A stretch of DNA of 46,031 bases from an uncultured beta proteobacterium (GTDB lineage: Bacteria; Pseudomonadota; Gammaproteobacteria; Burkholderiales; Burkholderiaceae_C): contig CAIYDK010000552.1 of assembly GCA_903924955.1 (NCBI GenBank), positions 1 through 46,031 of the forward strand, written 5' to 3'. Positions 12,154-43,486 of this stretch are shown in pieces. The stretch's first letter is position 1, and every line of letters starts with the position of its first letter. The notes below the pieces were generated by a model. It saw nothing but the letters and a program-made list of their open reading frames with translations. It did no database searches and was not told the DNA's origin. The translations under genes were made by a program, and so were the position numbers.

Positions 12154-14427
12154 ATGGTAAAAGCAAAGGATCAGTCTACGGCCAGACGCGCAATCGCCCG
12201 CTGCCAGGGTGTCGCCAAAGCGATTGCTATTATTTTAATAGCAGCTTACGCACACTCCACGGGGGCTACCACCCCATTCGATCAGATAAAAGGGGGCTAC
12301 CGGTCTTCTGACACGCTGATTCTGGACCGCAATGGCGAGCAGCTGCACCGCCTGCGAACCGACGCCACTGTCCGGCGAGGCCAGTGGGTGGCGCTAGCCG
12401 ATATCTCCCCCGCACTGCGCGCAGGCTTGGTGCTAAGCGAAGACAAGCGCTTTTACGAGCATAGCGGGGTAGATTGGCAGGCCGTGTCCAGCGCAGCGTG
12501 GGCCAACCTGTGGAACAGCAAAACGCGGGGGGCCTCCACCATCACCATGCAGTTGGCCGGACTGCTGGATGATGACCTCAAACGCGGATCGCGTGGGCGA
12601 AGCCTAACGCAGAAGTTGGGGCAAACCGTGTCCGCGCAACTGCTGGAGCGCAGCTGGCGCAAAGACCAGATTCTGGAGGCCTACCTGAACCTGGTGCCAT
12701 TCCGGGGTGAGTTGGTGGGCATTGACGCGATGAGCCAAACCCTGTTTGGCAAAGCCCCCAATGGGCTGGACATGCGCGAAGCCGCCGTGGCTACGGCTTT
12801 GGTGCGTGCACCCAATGCCACAGCGGCGCAGGTGGCGCAGCGGGCGTGCTCGGCGCTCAAAAGCCTGCAAGCCTCGGGTGCCGACTGCGAGGCACTTGGC
12901 CTGTTTGCCGAGGGTGCCCTGCAGCGGCGCGACTACGCGGCAAGTGTGGGCGTGGCTGCGCATGTGGCGCGCAGACTAGTGAGCGCTATGCCGTCCGTTT
13001 CAGCACCCATGAACCTTGGCGCACCACGTGCTCCCACAAGGGTCGGCACCGTCAAGACCACGTTACGCGCACCCTTGCAACGATTCGCCCTTCAGAGCTT
13101 GCAGCAACACCTGCGTGAGCTGACCGACCGCCATGTGGAAGATGGTGCGATTGTGGTGTTGGATAACACGTCCGGCGAGGTTCTGGCCTGGGTAGGCTCA
13201 TCAGGCGAGGGCATCAGCAACGCCGCGGATGTGGATGGCGTCACCGCCCTGCGCCAGCCCGGCTCCACACTCAAACCCTTTTTGTATGCGCAGGCCATTG
13301 CCCAGAAGCGCATCACTGCTGCATCGCTGCTGGAAGACTCGGGCACACAAATCCAGACCACCGGAGGCCTCTACATCCCGCAGAACTACGACCACCAGTT
13401 CAAGGGTTGGGTCTCGGCACGCACCGCGCTGGGCGCATCCCTCAACGTGCCCGCCGTGCGCACACTGGTCATGGTGTCACCGGACGCGTTTCACAAGCAA
13501 CTGGTCAGATTGGGCCTGCCGCTCAGGGAGAGTGGCGACTATTACGGCTACAGCCTTGCGCTGGGCAGCGCGGAAGTCTCACTGCTCAACCTGACCAACG
13601 CCTACCGTGCACTGGCCAACGGCGGGCGCGCCAGCGCCACGACGCTCGCGCTGGGCAGCAAGCCGACATGGCAGGCTGCACTGGACCCACGCGCAGCCTT
13701 CATCGTGGGCGACATCCTGAGCGACCCGCTTGCCCGCGCACGCACCTTTGGCCCCGACAGCATCCTGGGCACCCGCTTCTGGACCGCAGTCAAAACCGGA
13801 ACCAGCAAAGACATGCGCGACAACTGGGCCGTGGGCTGGTCACAGCGCTACACCGTGGGCGTATGGGTCGGCAACGCCAGCGGCGCACCCATGTGGGACG
13901 TAAGCGGCACCACGGGGGCTGCGCCCATTTGGGCGGCAGTGATGAATTACCTCCACACCGCTCAGAGCAGCTACGCGCCAAAGCCACCGGCTGGCGTGGT
14001 GCAAACAGTGGTGCAATTTGCAGCAACGCCATCCACTGCCACCAGCCCCATGCCAACCGAGGCGGCGCGCAAGGAGTGGTTTCTGCAAGGCACACAACAG
14101 TCGTCGTTTGCTATAAATTCAGGAGCTGTACACGCAACGTATTCGGGGGATAAGGCCCGAATCTCTGCCCCGACTTCCGGCACCATCATTGCGCTGGACC
14201 CCGACATACCGCCCAAAAATCAGCGCGTGACTTTTCTGGCCAACGGCCCCAACCTTCGCTGGCTGATGGATGGCAAAGTTTTTGCCAATGGTGCATCCGC
14301 CCAGTGGCCGCCCTGGCCCGGTCGACATGTGGTCCGCATTACGGATTCCAAGGGACAGGTGCTGGACGAGGTGCGAATTGAAGTACGCGGTGCGGGGCTT
14401 GCCGAAACAACTGATCGACGACGTTGA
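12154..14427 (+). CDS. pbpC: Penicillin-binding protein 1C
   Basis: Transglycosylase motif EDKRFYEHSGVDW and GASTITMQLAGLL; transpeptidase QPGSTLKPFLYAQ and KTGTSKDMRDNWAVGW; BiPBP_C tail (GTIIALDPDIPPKNQRV). Start at internal ATG 12154. Confidence 0.92.
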   Translation: MVKAKDQSTARRAIARCQGVAKAIAIILIAAYAHSTGATTPFDQIKGGYRSSDTLILDRNGEQLHRLRTDATVRRGQWVALADISPALRAGLVLSEDKRFYEHSGVDWQAVSSAAWANLWNSKTRGASTITMQLAGLLDDDLKRGSRGRSLTQKLGQTVSAQLLERSWRKDQILEAYLNLVPFRGELVGIDAMSQTLFGKAPNGLDMREAAVATALVRAPNATAAQVAQRACSALKSLQASGADCEALGLFAEGALQRRDYAASVGVAAHVARRLVSAMPSVSAPMNLGAPRAPTRVGTVKTTLRAPLQRFALQSLQQHLRELTDRHVEDGAIVVLDNTSGEVLAWVGSSGEGISNAADVDGVTALRQPGSTLKPFLYAQAIAQKRITAASLLEDSGTQIQTTGGLYIPQNYDHQFKGWVSARTALGASLNVPAVRTLVMVSPDAFHKQLVRLGLPLRESGDYYGYSLALGSAEVSLLNLTNAYRALANGGRASATTLALGSKPTWQAALDPRAAFIVGDILSDPLARARTFGPDSILGTRFWTAVKTGTSKDMRDNWAVGWSQRYTVGVWVGNASGAPMWDVSGTTGAAPIWAAVMNYLHTAQSSYAPKPPAGVVQTVVQFAATPSTATSPMPTEAARKEWFLQGTQQSSFAINSGAVHATYSGDKARISAPTSGTIIALDPDIPPKNQRVTFLANGPNLRWLMDGKVFANGASAQWPPWPGRHVVRITDSKGQVLDEVRIEVRGAGLAETTDRRR
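12225..12270 (+). repeat. Short dispersed palindromic repeat, copy A (inside pbpC TM region)
   Basis: tgctattattttaatagcagcttacgcacactccacgggggctacc. Confidence 0.65.
14109..14158 (+). repeat. Short dispersed repeat, copy B (inside pbpC linker)
   Basis: tgctataaattcaggagctgtacacgcaacgtattcgggggataaggccc. Confidence 0.6.
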
Positions 14428-27811: not shown

Positions 27812-28719
27812 GGTTTGGCCGCCTGCAAATGTGGAATCAGTGCATCAAGAATCTGCACCAGTGGCTCGGGCGGCAGGTCGTGACCCATGCCCTCAATGCC
27901 CACCAGGCGGGCACCACGAATGCGCCGTGCCACATCCTCAGCATGCTCAAACGGCACCAGCGGATCAGCCTTGCCGTGCAGCACCAGGGTTGGGCTGGCA
28001 ATGCTTGCGAGCTGCGCTGCGCGGGTAATGTCCGCGACGATCGCCACCATCTGGCGCATAGTGCCTGCCGGGTGGTAGCTGCGCTGCACAGCGCGTGTGA
28101 TTCTGCTGCGCATCTCGGGCTCGGGAGTGGGGAAATCAGGGCTGCCAATGGTCTTGTACAGCTTCACATAATGGTCTACCACGGCCTCCTGCGCGCCACT
28201 GGTCGGGCGACTGAGCAACACGCGTAACACGTCGCGGTGCGCTTGCTTCAACCCTTTGGCACCACTGCTGCTCATGATGCTGGTCAAGCTGATTACGCGC
28301 TGCGGTGCCGCAATAGCCACGCGCTGCGCAACCATGCCGCCCATACTCACGCCAACAATGTGCGCACTGACCACACCCAACGCGTCCAGCACACCCAGCG
28401 CGTCTTGCGCCATGTCGTCCAGCGTATACGGTGGACGAATACGCAAGCCCAGCTTGTATTTGATCCCAGCCATCAGTATGTTGGGCTTTCCCAAATGGTC
28501 AAAGTGCTGGCTCAGGCCAATGTCGCGGTTGTCCATGCGGATGACGCGAAAACCCGCGTCCACCAACTCGTCGACCATTTGGGCGGGCCAGGCGACGAGT
28601 TGCATGCCCAACCCCATGATGAGCAGCACGGCGGGGCGGGTGAAGGCGTCGGTGTCCTGGGGATTGATTTCAGCGGTGTCTTCGACTTCGATGTCGAGTC
28701 CGTTTGCTCTTATTTTCAT
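27808..28719 (-). CDS. Alpha/beta hydrolase
   Basis: [42 protein letters not shown] overlap with queF. Confidence 0.9.
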
Positions 28720-28754
28720 AGCTGCTTGCGCTTATTTTACGGGGGCTGGTGGCC
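28705..28754 (+). repeat. Short dispersed repeat, copy C (between hydrolase start and yaaA stop)
   Basis: tgctcttattttcatagctgcttgcgcttattttacgggggctggtggcc. Confidence 0.7.
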
Positions 28755-29520
28755 AATTACGTCGAAACACCAGACGCTGCGGGGTCGAGTGGGCGGCATC
28801 CCACGCATAGCCGTCTTCATCAAACGCGCGCAATTGCTCGGGCTGCACCAACTGGCGGGTCACGGCAAAGCGCGCCATCATGCCGCGCGCACGCTTGGCC
28901 GAGAAACTGACGATTTTGTACTGGCCGTTGCGCAATTCTTCAAACACACACTCCACCACACGGGCCTTGAGCGCCTTGGTATCCACTGCCTTGAAGTACT
29001 CTTGCGACGCCAAATTGATGACGATGGGGCTGATGTCGGCGCGCAGGCGTTTGTTCAGGTAATCGGCAATTTGTGTGCCCCAGAAGTGGTACAGGTCGCG
29101 CCCCTGCGGGTTGGCAAGGCGCGTGCCCATCTCCAACCGGTAGGGCTGCATCAGATCCAAAGGGCGCAGCACGCCATAAAGACCACTGAGGATGCACACG
29201 TGCGCCTGCGCCCAGGCCAGATCAGCCTCACCCAGGTTGCGCGCATGAAGCCCATCGTAAACATCGCCATCAAAGGCCAGCACGGCGGCCCGCGCGTTCT
29301 TGACCGTGGCGCGGGTAGACCAGGCCTGGTAGCGCGCCACATTGAGCCCGGCGAGTTTGTCACTCAGCGACATCAAGCCGGCAATATCTTGCGGTGACTG
29401 GGTGCGTAAGATTGCAATCAACGCCTGGGACTGCTTCACGAACAGTGGCGCGGTAGGGTTGTGGGGAGCAAGGGGGGTGTCGTAATCGAGCGACTTGGCA
29501 GGTGAGAGTAAAAACAGCAT
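28732..29520 (-). CDS. yaaA: YaaA/UPF0246 peroxide stress protein
   Basis: MLFLLSPAKSLDYDTPL; ILSGLYGVLRPLDLMQPYRLEMGTRL; VINLASQEYFKAV; start at internal ATG 29520. Confidence 0.95.
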   Translation of the reverse strand: MLFLLSPAKSLDYDTPLAPHNPTAPLFVKQSQALIAILRTQSPQDIAGLMSLSDKLAGLNVARYQAWSTRATVKNARAAVLAFDGDVYDGLHARNLGEADLAWAQAHVCILSGLYGVLRPLDLMQPYRLEMGTRLANPQGRDLYHFWGTQIADYLNKRLRADISPIVINLASQEYFKAVDTKALKARVVECVFEELRNGQYKIVSFSAKRARGMMARFAVTRQLVQPEQLRAFDEDGYAWDAAHSTPQRLVFRRNWPPAPVK

Positions 29521-30610: not shown

Positions 30611-33241
30611 GTGAAAAACGTCGAATCCATCACCTCTGCATTGCCCGCTGAACCCCTGACAGCGCTGGCGCAGGCTGCCCTTTCGCTGGCGGCAGTGCCT
30701 GGGCACTTTGACGAGTTGCGCGGGCACACCGCCACGGGGGCTATCGGGCAACCGGATGCTACGCAATCAATAGCATCAAACACAGATATGACGGGGGATT
30801 GGGGTCAATTCTTTGAAAGCTGCTCGACTGACGGCCTGGGTCCGTTGGGCCAGCGCGCCATCACCCTGGCGCGCCAGATCCGCGACAACGGCGTCACCTA
30901 TAACGTCTATGCCGACGAGGACGGCCCCCAGCGCCCCTGGTCGCTGGGACTGTTTCCTCTGATTATTTCGGCACAGAGCTGGCAACAAATTGAGGTCGGC
31001 GTCTCGCAACGGGTTCGCCTGCTGGACCGCCTGATGGCGGATGTGTACGGACCGCAGGACCTGCTTGCCCAGGGACTGTTGCCACCCGCACTGGTTCAGG
31101 GGCACCCCGGCTACCTGCGCGCCATGCATGGCGTGCAACCGGTAGGCGGTACGCACTTGCACATTGCGGCGTTTGACCTGGCGCGGGGACCCGACGGCAA
31201 CTGGTGGGTAGTGTCGCAGCGCACGCAGGCACCCTCCGGGCTGGGCTATTTGCTGGAGAACCGACTGGCCGTGTCGCGCCTGTTCCCACAGGCGTTCGAA
31301 GGGTTGCAGGTGCAGCGCCTGGCCGGCACCTATCGCGCGCTGATGGACAGCATGAAGTCCATGAGCACCGCCGGGCAAGATGCCCATATCGCCTTGCTGA
31401 CACCGGGCCCCTACAACGAAACGTATTTCGAGCACGCCTACCTGGCGCGCTACTTGGGTATCACACTGGTGGAGGGCAACGACTTGATCGTGCGCGACCA
31501 GCACCTCTACCTCAAGACGCTGCGCGGACTGGTTCCAGTACACGGCTTGCTCAAGCGACTGGATGATCAGTTTCTGGATCCGCTCGAACTGCGGTCCGAC
31601 TCCACTTTGGGCGTTCCCGGATTGTTGCAAGCCATCCGCGCCGGCAACGTACTGGTGGCCAATGCGCCGGGGTCAGCGTTTCTGGAGTCGCCCGCCCTGC
31701 TGGGCTTTTTGCCGGCGCTGTCCGAACACCTGCTGGGAGAAGAATTGCTGTTGCCTGCACTGCCTACCTGGTGGTGTGGCGAGCGCTCGGCACTCGAGGA
31801 AGTGTTGCCACGCCTGCAGGAATATGCCATTAAACCCACCTACCCGGGTTCCACCATGCACGGCAATTTTGATTCCGTCCTGGGCCGCAGCCTGATGCCG
31901 CGAGAACGTGACGAGTGGGCGGGACGCATCCTGCGACAGAGCGACGAACACACCATTCAGGCCTATATGCCCTTGTCGCAAATGCCGACCTGGCAGGCTG
32001 AGACCGCGGACGTGGTGCCGCGCTCGGTCATGCTGAGGGTGTTTGCGGTGTCGCAAGGTGCCCAATCGTGGCGCGTGCTGCCCGGCGGCCTGGCCCGTGT
32101 GGCCGGGGGCGGCACCGAAGTCGCCTCCATGCAGCACGGTGGCAGCAGTGCCGATGTGTGGGCCATCACTACCGACCGTGTCGACAAGACCACGCTGCTG
32201 CAGCCAGCCCTGACCGCCTCGACGCTGGCCCACCGCAAACGCCTGGTCACCAGCCGCGCCGCCGAAAACCTGTTCTGGCTGGGACGCTACACCGAGCGCG
32301 CCGAAAACTCGGTCCAACTGGCGCGCCTGGTACTGGAATGCCTGAGCGGTGAGGACCAGTCCTCCCAACCCCTGCTGACCTGGCTGGGCAGAATGGCGCT
32401 CAACAACACGCTGGTGTTGCCCGGTGTGCCCGCGCTCACCCCCGTGGTGCAGGCGCGCCGGGTGTTTGAGCGCTCCCTCATCGCCAGCCTGGGCAGCAAC
32501 CATCAAGCGACCAGCGTGGGCTACAACCTGCGCGCGGTTCGACTGGCCGGAGCGTCCGTACGCGAACGCCTGTCACAGGAGCATTGGAGTCTGATGCAAC
32601 GCGCCGAGGACCGGTTCTTTGCCAGCTGTGCCGAGCACACACAAAGTGCCGACTATTCATCGGTGCAGGCACTGGCAACACTCAAGACCGCCAGTGACCA
32701 CCTGGCCGCTATTACGGGCTTGCAAACTGACCGCATGACACGTGACGACGGTTGGCGCCTGCTCAGCATAGGGCGCCATATTGAACGACTTGGCTTTCTG
32801 GCGGCGGCCCTGCGCATAGGCTTTGAGACCCACAGCGTGCACCAGACCGGGGGCTTTGAGGCCATGGTGAGCCTGTTCGACAGCACCATCACCTTCCACG
32901 CCCAGTACCAGCAAAGCCGCGACATAGCCGCGCTGGTGGACCTGCTGGTGCAGGACCGCGACAACCCGCGATCGCTGGCCTGGGTGGCGCATACGTTGCG
33001 CGGGCGTCTGGCCAAGCTGGCAGGCAGCGAGCCAAACCAGCTCAGCCTGCTGTCGTTCAGCGTGCCCGACCCCGGTACATGGCAGCTCGAAGCCCTGTGC
33101 ACAACCGACGGTGATGGACGTTACGCCCAATTGACCCAGCTGCTGCTCGACTGCAGCGAAGCCGCATTTCATGTATCTGAGGAAATTGGCGCCACCTATT
33201 TCACCCACTCCGGCGAGTCCGGACAAAGCCTGGGCGCGTAA
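30611..33241 (+). CDS. Circularly permuted ATP-grasp type 2 protein fused to alpha-E (DUF403) domain
   Basis: DGLGPLGQRAITLARQIRDNGVTYNVYADEDGPQRPWSLGLFPLIIS; LARYLGITLVEGNDLIVRDQHLYLKTLRGLVPVHGLLKRLDD; alpha-E region SRAAENLFWLGRYTERAENSVQLARLVLE. GTG at 30611 favoured over TTG at 30554. Confidence 0.9.
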   Translation: MKNVESITSALPAEPLTALAQAALSLAAVPGHFDELRGHTATGAIGQPDATQSIASNTDMTGDWGQFFESCSTDGLGPLGQRAITLARQIRDNGVTYNVYADEDGPQRPWSLGLFPLIISAQSWQQIEVGVSQRVRLLDRLMADVYGPQDLLAQGLLPPALVQGHPGYLRAMHGVQPVGGTHLHIAAFDLARGPDGNWWVVSQRTQAPSGLGYLLENRLAVSRLFPQAFEGLQVQRLAGTYRALMDSMKSMSTAGQDAHIALLTPGPYNETYFEHAYLARYLGITLVEGNDLIVRDQHLYLKTLRGLVPVHGLLKRLDDQFLDPLELRSDSTLGVPGLLQAIRAGNVLVANAPGSAFLESPALLGFLPALSEHLLGEELLLPALPTWWCGERSALEEVLPRLQEYAIKPTYPGSTMHGNFDSVLGRSLMPRERDEWAGRILRQSDEHTIQAYMPLSQMPTWQAETADVVPRSVMLRVFAVSQGAQSWRVLPGGLARVAGGGTEVASMQHGGSSADVWAITTDRVDKTTLLQPALTASTLAHRKRLVTSRAAENLFWLGRYTERAENSVQLARLVLECLSGEDQSSQPLLTWLGRMALNNTLVLPGVPALTPVVQARRVFERSLIASLGSNHQATSVGYNLRAVRLAGASVRERLSQEHWSLMQRAEDRFFASCAEHTQSADYSSVQALATLKTASDHLAAITGLQTDRMTRDDGWRLLSIGRHIERLGFLAAALRIGFETHSVHQTGGFEAMVSLFDSTITFHAQYQQSRDIAALVDLLVQDRDNPRSLAWVAHTLRGRLAKLAGSEPNQLSLLSFSVPDPGTWQLEALCTTDGDGRYAQLTQLLLDCSEAAFHVSEEIGATYFTHSGESGQSLGA
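30729..30777 (+). repeat. Short dispersed repeat, copy F (inverted arrangement, inside ATP-grasp gene)
   Basis: ccgccacgggggctatcgggcaaccggatgctacgcaatcaatagcatc. Confidence 0.5.
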
Positions 33242-33253
33242 GCGCAACCCACC

Positions 33254-34279
33254 ATGCAACTGCGCATCACCCACGAAACCTGTTACGACTATGTCCCACC
33301 GGTGGACATTGCGCAGCACGTGGCCTATTTGCAACCGCTGAATACCGCCAACCAGAAGTTGCTCAGCCATAGCCTGAACGTTACTCCCGCGCCCGCACAA
33401 CAAGTTGCCACGCTGGACGTGTATGGCAATATGCGCCAATTTTTTTCGCTGCAAACCGCACACACGCGGCTCCTGGTGACTGCCCGCAGTCTGGTGTCCA
33501 CCCGGGTTGTGCCCATGCCGGAGAGCGTCGTATCCTGGGAGCAGGTGCGCGAGCGCTTTCGCTACTGTGCCAACAAGCCGTTTGACGCCGCCGCCGAGTT
33601 TATTTTTCCCTCGGTCTATGCACCGCGCCACCCAGACTTTGCCGCCTACGCCCGGTTAAGTTTTGCCCCAGGCGTTGCGCTGCTGGCGGCTGCGCGCGAC
33701 CTGATGCAACGCATCCATCGTGACTTCACCTATGAGAGCCAAAGCACCCAGGTCAACACACCCGCGCTAGAGGCTCTGGCGCAGCGCAAAGGCGTGTGCC
33801 AGGACTTTGCCCACATCATGATTGCCTGCCTGCGCAGCTACGGTCTGCCAGCGCGGTACGTCAGTGGTTACCTGCTGACACAGCCCGCGCCAGGCCAGGA
33901 GCGGTTAGTGGGCAGCGATGCGTCTCATGCCTGGGTATCGGTCTACTTGCCAGATTTGCCCGAAATGGCTGACACAACAGGAGCGTGCACCAGCACGCGT
34001 TGGTGTGACTTTGACCCCACGAATGACCGCGATGGCTGGGGTACACCGGGCGAGGACTATGTCACGCTGGCGCTGGGGCGCGACTACGCAGACGTGTCGC
34101 CGATTCGCGGGGTCATTCATGGCGGCACCAACCACCAATTGACCGTGGGGGTAACGGTGGAGCCGTATGAAGAAAATGCCTGGACCAGCACGGCCCCAAG
34201 TCAAGGCCAGGATCAGTCACAATCACAATCGTCCTTGCAATCGCAGTCCCAGTCCCAATCCATGGGCGCTATCCTTTAG
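33254..34279 (+). CDS. Transglutaminase-like cysteine protease family protein, Gln/Ser-repeat C-terminal tail
   Basis: MQLRITHETCYDYVPPVDIAQHVAYLQPL; KGVCQDFAHIMIACLRSYGLPARYVSGYL; DASHAWVSVYLP; DFDPTND. Confidence 0.93.
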   Translation: MQLRITHETCYDYVPPVDIAQHVAYLQPLNTANQKLLSHSLNVTPAPAQQVATLDVYGNMRQFFSLQTAHTRLLVTARSLVSTRVVPMPESVVSWEQVRERFRYCANKPFDAAAEFIFPSVYAPRHPDFAAYARLSFAPGVALLAAARDLMQRIHRDFTYESQSTQVNTPALEALAQRKGVCQDFAHIMIACLRSYGLPARYVSGYLLTQPAPGQERLVGSDASHAWVSVYLPDLPEMADTTGACTSTRWCDFDPTNDRDGWGTPGEDYVTLALGRDYADVSPIRGVIHGGTNHQLTVGVTVEPYEENAWTSTAPSQGQDQSQSQSSLQSQSQSQSMGAIL

Positions 34280-34318
34280 ATAGCTGTTTGCGCCTATTCG
34301 GCGGGAGCTGGAAGGCGT
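34266..34318 (+). repeat. Short dispersed repeat, copy D (spans transglutaminase stop codon)
   Basis: gcgctatcctttagatagctgtttgcgcctattcggcgggagctggaaggcgt. Confidence 0.65.
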
Positions 34319-34346
34319 TTTACCATCAACTCACCTGGAATTAACC

Positions 34347-42625: not shown

Positions 42626-43486
42626 TCAATCCGCCGGGGGTCCATTGAACAGGTCGAGTATGCGCCATCCGCGTTCCACCGCCAGCGCGCGCAAACGGGC
42701 ATCCGGGTTGGTGGCCACGGGCACCGTGGCTTTTTCCAATAGTGGTAAATCATTCATGGAGTCGGAATAAAACGTGGTGTGAACCGAGTCCCAGGCCAAG
42801 TCCCGGGACTGCAGCCATTGCTCGACGCGCGCAACCTTCCCTTCGCGGAAAGACGGCACGCCGCGTATGGTCCCGGTAAACCATCCCGAACCACCCACTT
42901 GCTCGTCGCGTTCCAGTTCCACCGCAATCAGGTGTGATACCCCAAATGCCTGGGCAATGGGACGGGTTACAAACTCGTTAGTGGCAGTAACGATGACAAC
43001 GAGGTCTCCGTTACGCTGATGCGCACGAACCAGCTCCAGCGCCTGTGGTCTTATGGCTTTCTGAACCGTAGCCCTCATGAAATCAGCGTGAGCAGCTATT
43101 GAATTGATAGCGCCCTGCTTGCAGATGGCAGCCGTTGCAAAGCGCACGTAGGCATAGACATCGAGCGTTCCCGCCTGGTATTGGGCATAAAAGGCGTCAT
43201 TCTGGCGCTTGAAATCGGCCGGATCGACCCAGCCACGCGCGATCGTGAACTCACCCCAGGCGTGGTCTGAATCGATCGGCAGCAGGGTGTGGTCCAAGTC
43301 AAAAAGGGCTATCTTGACCCCCACGCTCCCCACTTTTTGTGGTTCGCTGGACGTGCCGATGCCAGAGGCAACGACTCTTCGTCCTGTCCCACCCTGCGCA
43401 GGCAGGCTGGGAGCCGCAGGACTTAGCCCCGAGGGGGCCCTCGTGCCTAGGGGCGGCCCGTCGGCACTCAAGTGGTTCTCTTGCAT
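42626..43486 (-). CDS. HAD-IB family phosphatase; N-terminal about 54 residues come from a GC-rich repeat-like segment
   Basis: KIALFDLDHTLLPIDSDHAWGEF; VVIVTATNEFVTRPIAQAFGV; FYSDSMNDLPLLE. ATG 43486 overlaps hda stop (TAATG); alternative GTG start at 43324. Confidence 0.9.
   Translation of the reverse strand: MQENHLSADGPPLGTRAPSGLSPAAPSLPAQGGTGRRVVASGIGTSSEPQKVGSVGVKIALFDLDHTLLPIDSDHAWGEFTIARGWVDPADFKRQNDAFYAQYQAGTLDVYAYVRFATAAICKQGAINSIAAHADFMRATVQKAIRPQALELVRAHQRNGDLVVIVTATNEFVTRPIAQAFGVSHLIAVELERDEQVGGSGWFTGTIRGVPSFREGKVARVEQWLQSRDLAWDSVHTTFYSDSMNDLPLLEKATVPVATNPDARLRALAVERGWRILDLFNGPPAD
43066..43113 (-). repeat. Short dispersed repeat, copy E (inside HAD gene)
   Basis: Minus strand: gcgctatcaattcaatagctgctcacgctgatttcatgagggctacgg. 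Confidence 0.5.
43325..43483 (-). repeat. GC-rich, hairpin-forming segment between hda and the HAD domain
   Basis: Minus strand gggccgcccctaggcacgagggccccctcggggctaagtcctgcggctcccagcctgcctgcgcagggtgggacagg with nested inverted repeats (agggccccct; cctgc-ctgc-gcagg). Confidence 0.5.

Follow-up and report, generated by a model that had tools for sequence, protein, structure and literature searches.

The pbpC gene of an uncultured beta proteobacterium raises the question of how a short palindromic repeat comes to lie twice, in frame, within a single protein-coding gene, and what kind of element it is. The window, by which we mean the whole stretch of DNA analysed (46,031 nt; contig CAIYDK010000552.1), carries pbpC at 12154..14427 on the plus strand; its open reading frame, translation and Pfam matches define a protein of 757 aa with Transgly (65-237), Transpeptidase (331-572) and BiPBP_C (665-742) domains. 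The first-pass annotation had described two in-frame copies of the repeat in this gene. Both are present as it described them and match one family. Copy A (12222..12280, plus strand) lies over the N-terminal signal-anchor (residues ~23-41), scores 75.8 bits (E 4e-16) with a covariance model and 70.9 bits with a weight matrix built without the window's copies, and by the latter score ranks 21st among 227 full-length copies. Copy B (14106..14164, plus strand), in the linker before BiPBP_C (residues ~651-669), is degenerate but certainly a family member (22.8 bits, E 0.0013, and 36.3 bits, respectively). The single frame claimed for the two copies holds as well, both being in phase 2, with codons starting at motif base 2.

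A dispersed, hairpin-headed repeat and its distribution

Copies A and B belong to one asymmetric, hairpin-headed DNA motif that occurs several hundred times in the genome. BLAST of copy A against its own genome returned 40 matches, the alignment of which shows one common unit, and a first covariance model, seeded from copy A and made from 29 aligned copies of that genome, recovered at least 150 matches in it, all with E below 4e-6. The weight matrix, built from 182 copies all outside the window, identified 261 separate copies scoring at least 14 bits in the 1.757 Mb read, and none at 12 bits or more in the same 1.757 Mb reversed, which rules out chance resemblance. Much of the sequence read was picked for holding matches; contigs and stretches not so picked hold 14 copies in 146 kb, and from this density we estimate that the whole genome, a Rhodoferax-like metagenome assembly of 627 contigs (91.5% complete, 5.3% contamination), probably holds 400-650 copies.

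The window itself carries six. Besides A and B, they comprise two copies that overlap gene 3′ ends, one that of a yaaA-type gene on the minus strand (28702..28760, plus strand; 55.1 bits) and one that of a transglutaminase-like gene (34264..34322, plus strand; 41.6 bits), and a copy in frame within a HAD-type hydrolase gene (gene at 42626-43324, minus strand; copy at 43057..43115, minus strand; 36.6 bits), all scored with the covariance model. The sixth is degenerate and sits at the 5′ end of an ATP-grasp gene of the circularly permuted type (30754..30812, plus strand; 22.4 bits with the covariance model, 29.9 bits with the matrix). A few bases upstream of this last copy, at the start of the ATP-grasp gene, a half-motif, CCACGGGGGCTA, occupies 30732-30749. 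Close pairs or clusters of the repeat are hardly found, and only 1.5% of copy spacings fall below 500 bp. In 150 copies from a one-contig congener, the repeat is scattered over both strands without strand bias and with random spacing.

The consensus of the repeat is AATTGCTATTAATTTAATAGCTGCTTACGCATATTCCACGGGGGCTAGAGGCCTATTTG, in which a GCTA-N9-TAGC hairpin is followed by GCTTACGCA, ACGGGGGCTA, AGGCC and ATTT, together ~60-71 bp. The unit is longer than the ~47 bp originally assigned to it: it is clear over ~59 bp and extends to ~71 bp by information content, with conservation weakening toward column 71 and none outside. Its information, ~50-60 bits, is spread over these ~59-71 bp; the motif has a GC content of ~47%, and its copies are single. 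Among the aligned copies, neither end conserves a GTAG or CGTC tetranucleotide, no symmetric ends (terminal inverted repeats) were seen, and the flanks are without information. Truncated copies are nearly absent, and a second family consisting of the left half only was rejected, as left-only matches are, with few exceptions, opposite-strand readings of the palindrome. Within the hairpin, compensatory base changes are no more frequent than in a shuffled control, and an RNA structure or function is therefore unsupported; the window and six repeat loci gave no Rfam 15 match above the gathering score.

The motif is present in many, not all, Comamonadaceae. Among 36 congeners (G001-G036), copies number dozens to hundreds in carriers and 0-3 in the others; about half of the congeners are near or at no fewer than 90 matches, and one is intermediate with 17. 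Many small genomes (2-3 Mb) are found among the non-carriers. At a threshold of E 1e-4, the motif was detected in 84 of 301 genomes of the wider GTDB family and in 43 of its 135 genera, compared with 0 of 24 genomes from other families of the order. A consensus query, which finds close copies only, detected one positive plasmid (from Rhodoferax antarcticus) among 72,556 plasmid records and no match in phages or viral contigs, and we accordingly set plasmid or phage carriage aside. Three candidate factors likewise failed to track the motif: a single Y1_Tnp (RAYT/Y1 transposase) gene is found in nearly all congeners, motif or not; reverse transcriptase genes do not follow motif presence and are absent from the complete carrier genome G001; and ComEC is found whether or not a genome carries the motif.

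Placement in genes and the permitted frames

According to gene calls from a home-made, codon-usage-based ORF caller, 113 copies (~43%) lie wholly inside genes, 72 straddle a gene end and 76 are intergenic, in sequence that is 87% coding. The non-coding copies are attached to gene 3′ ends, at a median distance of 1.5 bp, and sit between convergent rather than divergent gene pairs (29 vs 11, against a background of 209/210), with no preference of orientation (50 vs 47). In-frame copies occur in the genes for TruB, Cca, MutL, LolD, WaaA, pyruvate-dehydrogenase E2, PurL, DapF, LeuRS, UrtE, TlyA, threonine aldolase, HpnE and MiaA. In addition, three genomes carry a copy in the same linker near the C-terminus of a putative DNA polymerase IV gene (identified by eye), just before a clamp-binding-like tail (L221:17359-17417, L222:21543-21601 and L224:18839-18897, all minus strand).

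Presence within genes is restricted by frame. The first-pass annotation had proposed a genome-wide scan for frame bias and for an excess of hits, and both were found: the excess is that of the 261 copies over the empty reversed sequence, and 95 of the 113 coding copies are in phase 2, 48 of them sense and 47 antisense, leaving 18 for the other four frames together. The idea that one coding frame is tolerated or selected was hence right about the strong preference and wrong about the number, there being one preferred frame per orientation and, with it, two different peptides, approximately A-I-x-x-I-A-A-x-A-x-S-T-G-A and L-A-P-V-E-Y-A-Q-A-A-I-K-x-I-A. Stop codons alone do not explain this choice: the two phase-0 frames are used by 7 copies, where the stop-free rate in non-coding copies predicts 52 (chi-square p 1.7e-24), so that there is a preference for the peptide as well as for the absence of stops.

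To take the copies in pbpC simply as insertions by which a peptide is added would be only partly right. At site A, every PbpC orthologue has a signal-anchor, motif or not; the motif-free orthologues (from Variovorax, Cupriavidus, Herbaspirillum and other genomes) carry the same hydrophobic segment without a gap, and copy A, which falls at the end of a helix predicted for residues 2-35, is not an inserted peptide. The motif is present at this site in the PbpC of ten relatives (17-47 bits), and the congeners G031 (63.6 bits) and G007 (42 bits) have matches at the same position. Site B, by contrast, is an extra stretch of linker, modelled with low confidence (pLDDT below 50 at residues 654-665), and orthologues without the motif also lack the extra residues; here the motif occurs in 16 relatives (13-58 bits), including Rhodoferax, Polaromonas, Acidovorax, Giesbergeria, Simplicispira and Rubrivivax. 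The proposed comparison with motif-free orthologues thus gave opposite answers at the two sites, going against the first-pass annotation at A and not at B; both sites are occupied across genera.

Other proteins show the same range. Length changes over the ~20-codon motif were measured against solved homologues, which are distant, so that single values may be a few residues off. The net change is 0, with no indel, in LolD (copy of 61 bits) and at site 1 of MutL (50 bits), 0 to +8 residues in MiaA, +4 in TruB, +6 in LeuRS, +7 in PurL, ~+13 in WaaA, ~+16 in DapF and ~+27 in threonine aldolase; UrtE has no net change relative to its family profile. The copies in MutL and LolD are clear, gapless overlays of native codons. 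In the alpha-2-macroglobulin-like (MG2-protein) gene upstream of pbpC, a conserved, indel-free stretch (F-K-S-A-S-G...S-Y-Q-F-N-S-G-G) scores 12-31 bits in seven relatives (L264, L259, L279, L252, L235, L231 and L276) and well below zero in most others, the score coming from AT-rich codons for S-Y-Q-F-N; these partial copies look like a motif forming in place. Together, the indel-free cases in MutL, LolD, UrtE and the alpha-2-macroglobulin-like stretch indicate that the motif can take shape over existing codons. Given these overlays and the lack of siblings among the copies, the mobile or repair-generated element suggested in the first-pass annotation is only one possible origin.

Probable maintenance of the copies and its possible causes

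The 238 copies compared with one another show neither genealogy nor siblings and behave as independent draws from one matrix: their pairwise identity (mean 0.555, sd 0.0585) equals that of column-shuffled copies (mean 0.555, sd 0.051). The sole pair at 0.96 identity (L108:225-285 and L113:5027-5086) also has near-identical flanks, and we consider it a duplicated or strain-variant segment of the assembly and not a pair of repeat siblings. Conservation runs from ~0.25 to 1.00, invariant columns adjoining near-random ones, and this heterogeneity (p below 1e-56) is shared by copies in genes, at gene edges and in intergenic DNA. It persists if only the right half serves for selection: 96% of the copies so chosen keep the left half, whose columns are 0.37 to 1.00 conserved. 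The constraint reaches synonymous positions: across 17 sequences of PbpC site B from several genera, alanine is encoded by GCT in 51 of 80 motif codons, whereas the remainder of these genes uses it in 164 of 1876 (Fisher 1.5e-31). GC3 is 0.39 within motifs compared with 0.74 outside. Neutral decay of old insertions does not produce such patterns, and a recent burst would leave siblings. Therefore, the lack of genealogy, the column heterogeneity, the scarcity of truncations and the conserved GCT codons make it likely that maintenance of the DNA motif acts on each copy separately; the repeat seems to be kept up as DNA and not to be the debris of a dead transposon.

As to what maintains it, we favour a DNA-level site upheld by selection or drive, with a probability of roughly 0.48. 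Each copy would be kept individually as a recognition site, either as the target of a host protein or through an uptake or recombination drive that favours it. New sites would arise where the motif is acceptable, namely past stop codons, within linkers or signal peptides, or on top of native codons already similar to it, and within genes they would use one frame per orientation, the one that yields a benign, Ala-rich peptide. Four observations count against such a site: at 60-71 bp it would greatly exceed known uptake sequences, and most protein sites, in length; ComEC does not distinguish carriers from non-carriers; the residues gained in DapF, WaaA and PbpC site B call for more than point mutation; and its presence among congeners is sharply bimodal, which implies that cells can do without it.

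The main rival, which we regard as possible rather than probable, is a non-autonomous mobile palindrome akin to REPs or to the Rickettsia palindromic elements (RPEs), reportedly described by Ogata in 2000; moved by a transposase acting in trans, it would survive where it lands in a benign open frame and retain the parts that the transposase needs. The net gain of residues in DapF, WaaA, threonine aldolase and PbpC site B would follow directly from such insertions, and the intergenic copies hug stop codons and convergent gene pairs as REPs do (PMC3733652), a group for which, as for RPEs, in-frame copies are known, including one in truB (Di Nocera 2013, PMC3733652). However, mobility of this kind does not readily account for the absence of siblings among 238 copies, the missing GTAG/CGTC tag, Y1 transposase genes that do not follow the motif, the paucity of close pairs or clusters, the gapless overlays in MutL and LolD, or the constraint on every copy. 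Net length changes that vary from 0 in LolD and MutL to +16 in DapF, and the independence of the copies, speak for writing from a template, in which a short, diffusible single-stranded DNA or a replication template switch would replace a partly similar target while an error-prone step scrambled the variable positions. Yet a complete carrier genome lacks reverse transcriptase genes, no donor locus was found, and writing alone leaves the synonymous positions conserved across genera unexplained, so that we hold this mechanism to be unlikely.

The two remaining explanations are already contradicted by the pattern of constraint. Had the copies been inserted in one ancient burst from a single master and decayed neutrally since, their star-like relationships and the lack of sibling pairs would be understandable, but this history is very hard to reconcile with the contrast between conserved and free columns, with the near absence of truncated copies and with synonymous codons shared between genera. 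Similarly, selection on the encoded peptide instead of the DNA would explain the strong frame preference; nevertheless, the copies use either orientation equally often, with unrelated peptides as the outcome, fewer than half of them lie entirely within genes, the non-coding ones are under the same constraint, and synonymous positions follow the DNA motif, which leaves a protein-level module barely conceivable.

Returning to a maintained DNA-level site, we tentatively suggest a version that takes in the altered proteins: the long motif (60-71 bp) may spread and persist by overwriting sequence, genes included, after which selection or drive would retain it at every site. It would resemble an uptake or binding site, but one without precedent in length, and would reshape proteins in the single frame that each orientation permits. 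If the motif is indeed kept up at hundreds of sites, even in mutL, lolD, truB and leuS, a DNA-level process would impose sequence on the proteome of common freshwater and soil bacteria. Because close relatives carry either hundreds of copies or none, the genus lends itself to comparisons that could identify the factor involved and tell insertion, overwriting and drive apart.

Relation to known repeats and motifs

In the open-access literature, we came across no account of the complete unit, of copies in coding sequence or of the constraint on them, and a text search for the motif strings returned nothing relevant. Probable fragments have appeared in a 2017 motif survey, which listed two unexplained spaced motifs, GCTTAT-N5-AAGCG in Acidovorax ebreus (114 copies) and ATAGCT-N22-CAAAAG in Polaromonas naphthalenivorans (125 copies), found motif pairs to be most numerous in the Rhodoferax ferrireducens genome, and placed such motifs close to gene ends, with many in convergent pairs and most said to be intergenic (PMC5217627). 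In register, the Acidovorax ebreus pair corresponds to motif columns 29-44, and it probably represents a lineage variant of the repeat; the Polaromonas pair does not fit the register. The survey gives neither the full unit nor coding copies, frame rule or constraint.

The betaproteobacterial repeat element BRE, of ~90 bp and 69% GC which forms tandem arrays and has 4 copies in R. ferrireducens (Hot 2011, PMC3110155), resembles ours in being a short dispersed repeat of Comamonadaceae with some copies wholly inside coding sequences (PMC3110155). It is nonetheless a different, GC-rich repeat, the present one being shorter (59-71 bp), lower in GC and found as single copies. The likeness to RPEs and intragenic REPs goes further, as these too are palindromic, dispersed, and intergenic as well as in frame in housekeeping genes including truB. 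They add or replace ~20 residues in loops and linkers, where our repeat ranges from no net change (LolD, MutL) to a gain of +16 or more. The repeat described here differs in having no GTAG/CGTC end tag, RAYT association or clusters, and in its individually constrained copies without siblings, some of which overlay native codons without an indel. Moreover, tagged REPs are mostly intergenic, near 3′ ends and often paired, while our repeat combines proximity to 3′ ends with a large share of copies wholly in genes.

The DNA uptake sequences of Neisseriaceae and Pasteurellaceae (DUS/USS), as far as the excerpts of the two sources extend (PMC3630211, PMC2397512), have cores of only ~9-12 bp, compared with 60-71 bp and ~50-60 bits for the present motif. 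Within the same excerpts, they share with it hundreds of copies on both strands, genus-level variants, a preferred frame, many positions near gene ends, and copies that do not descend from one another.
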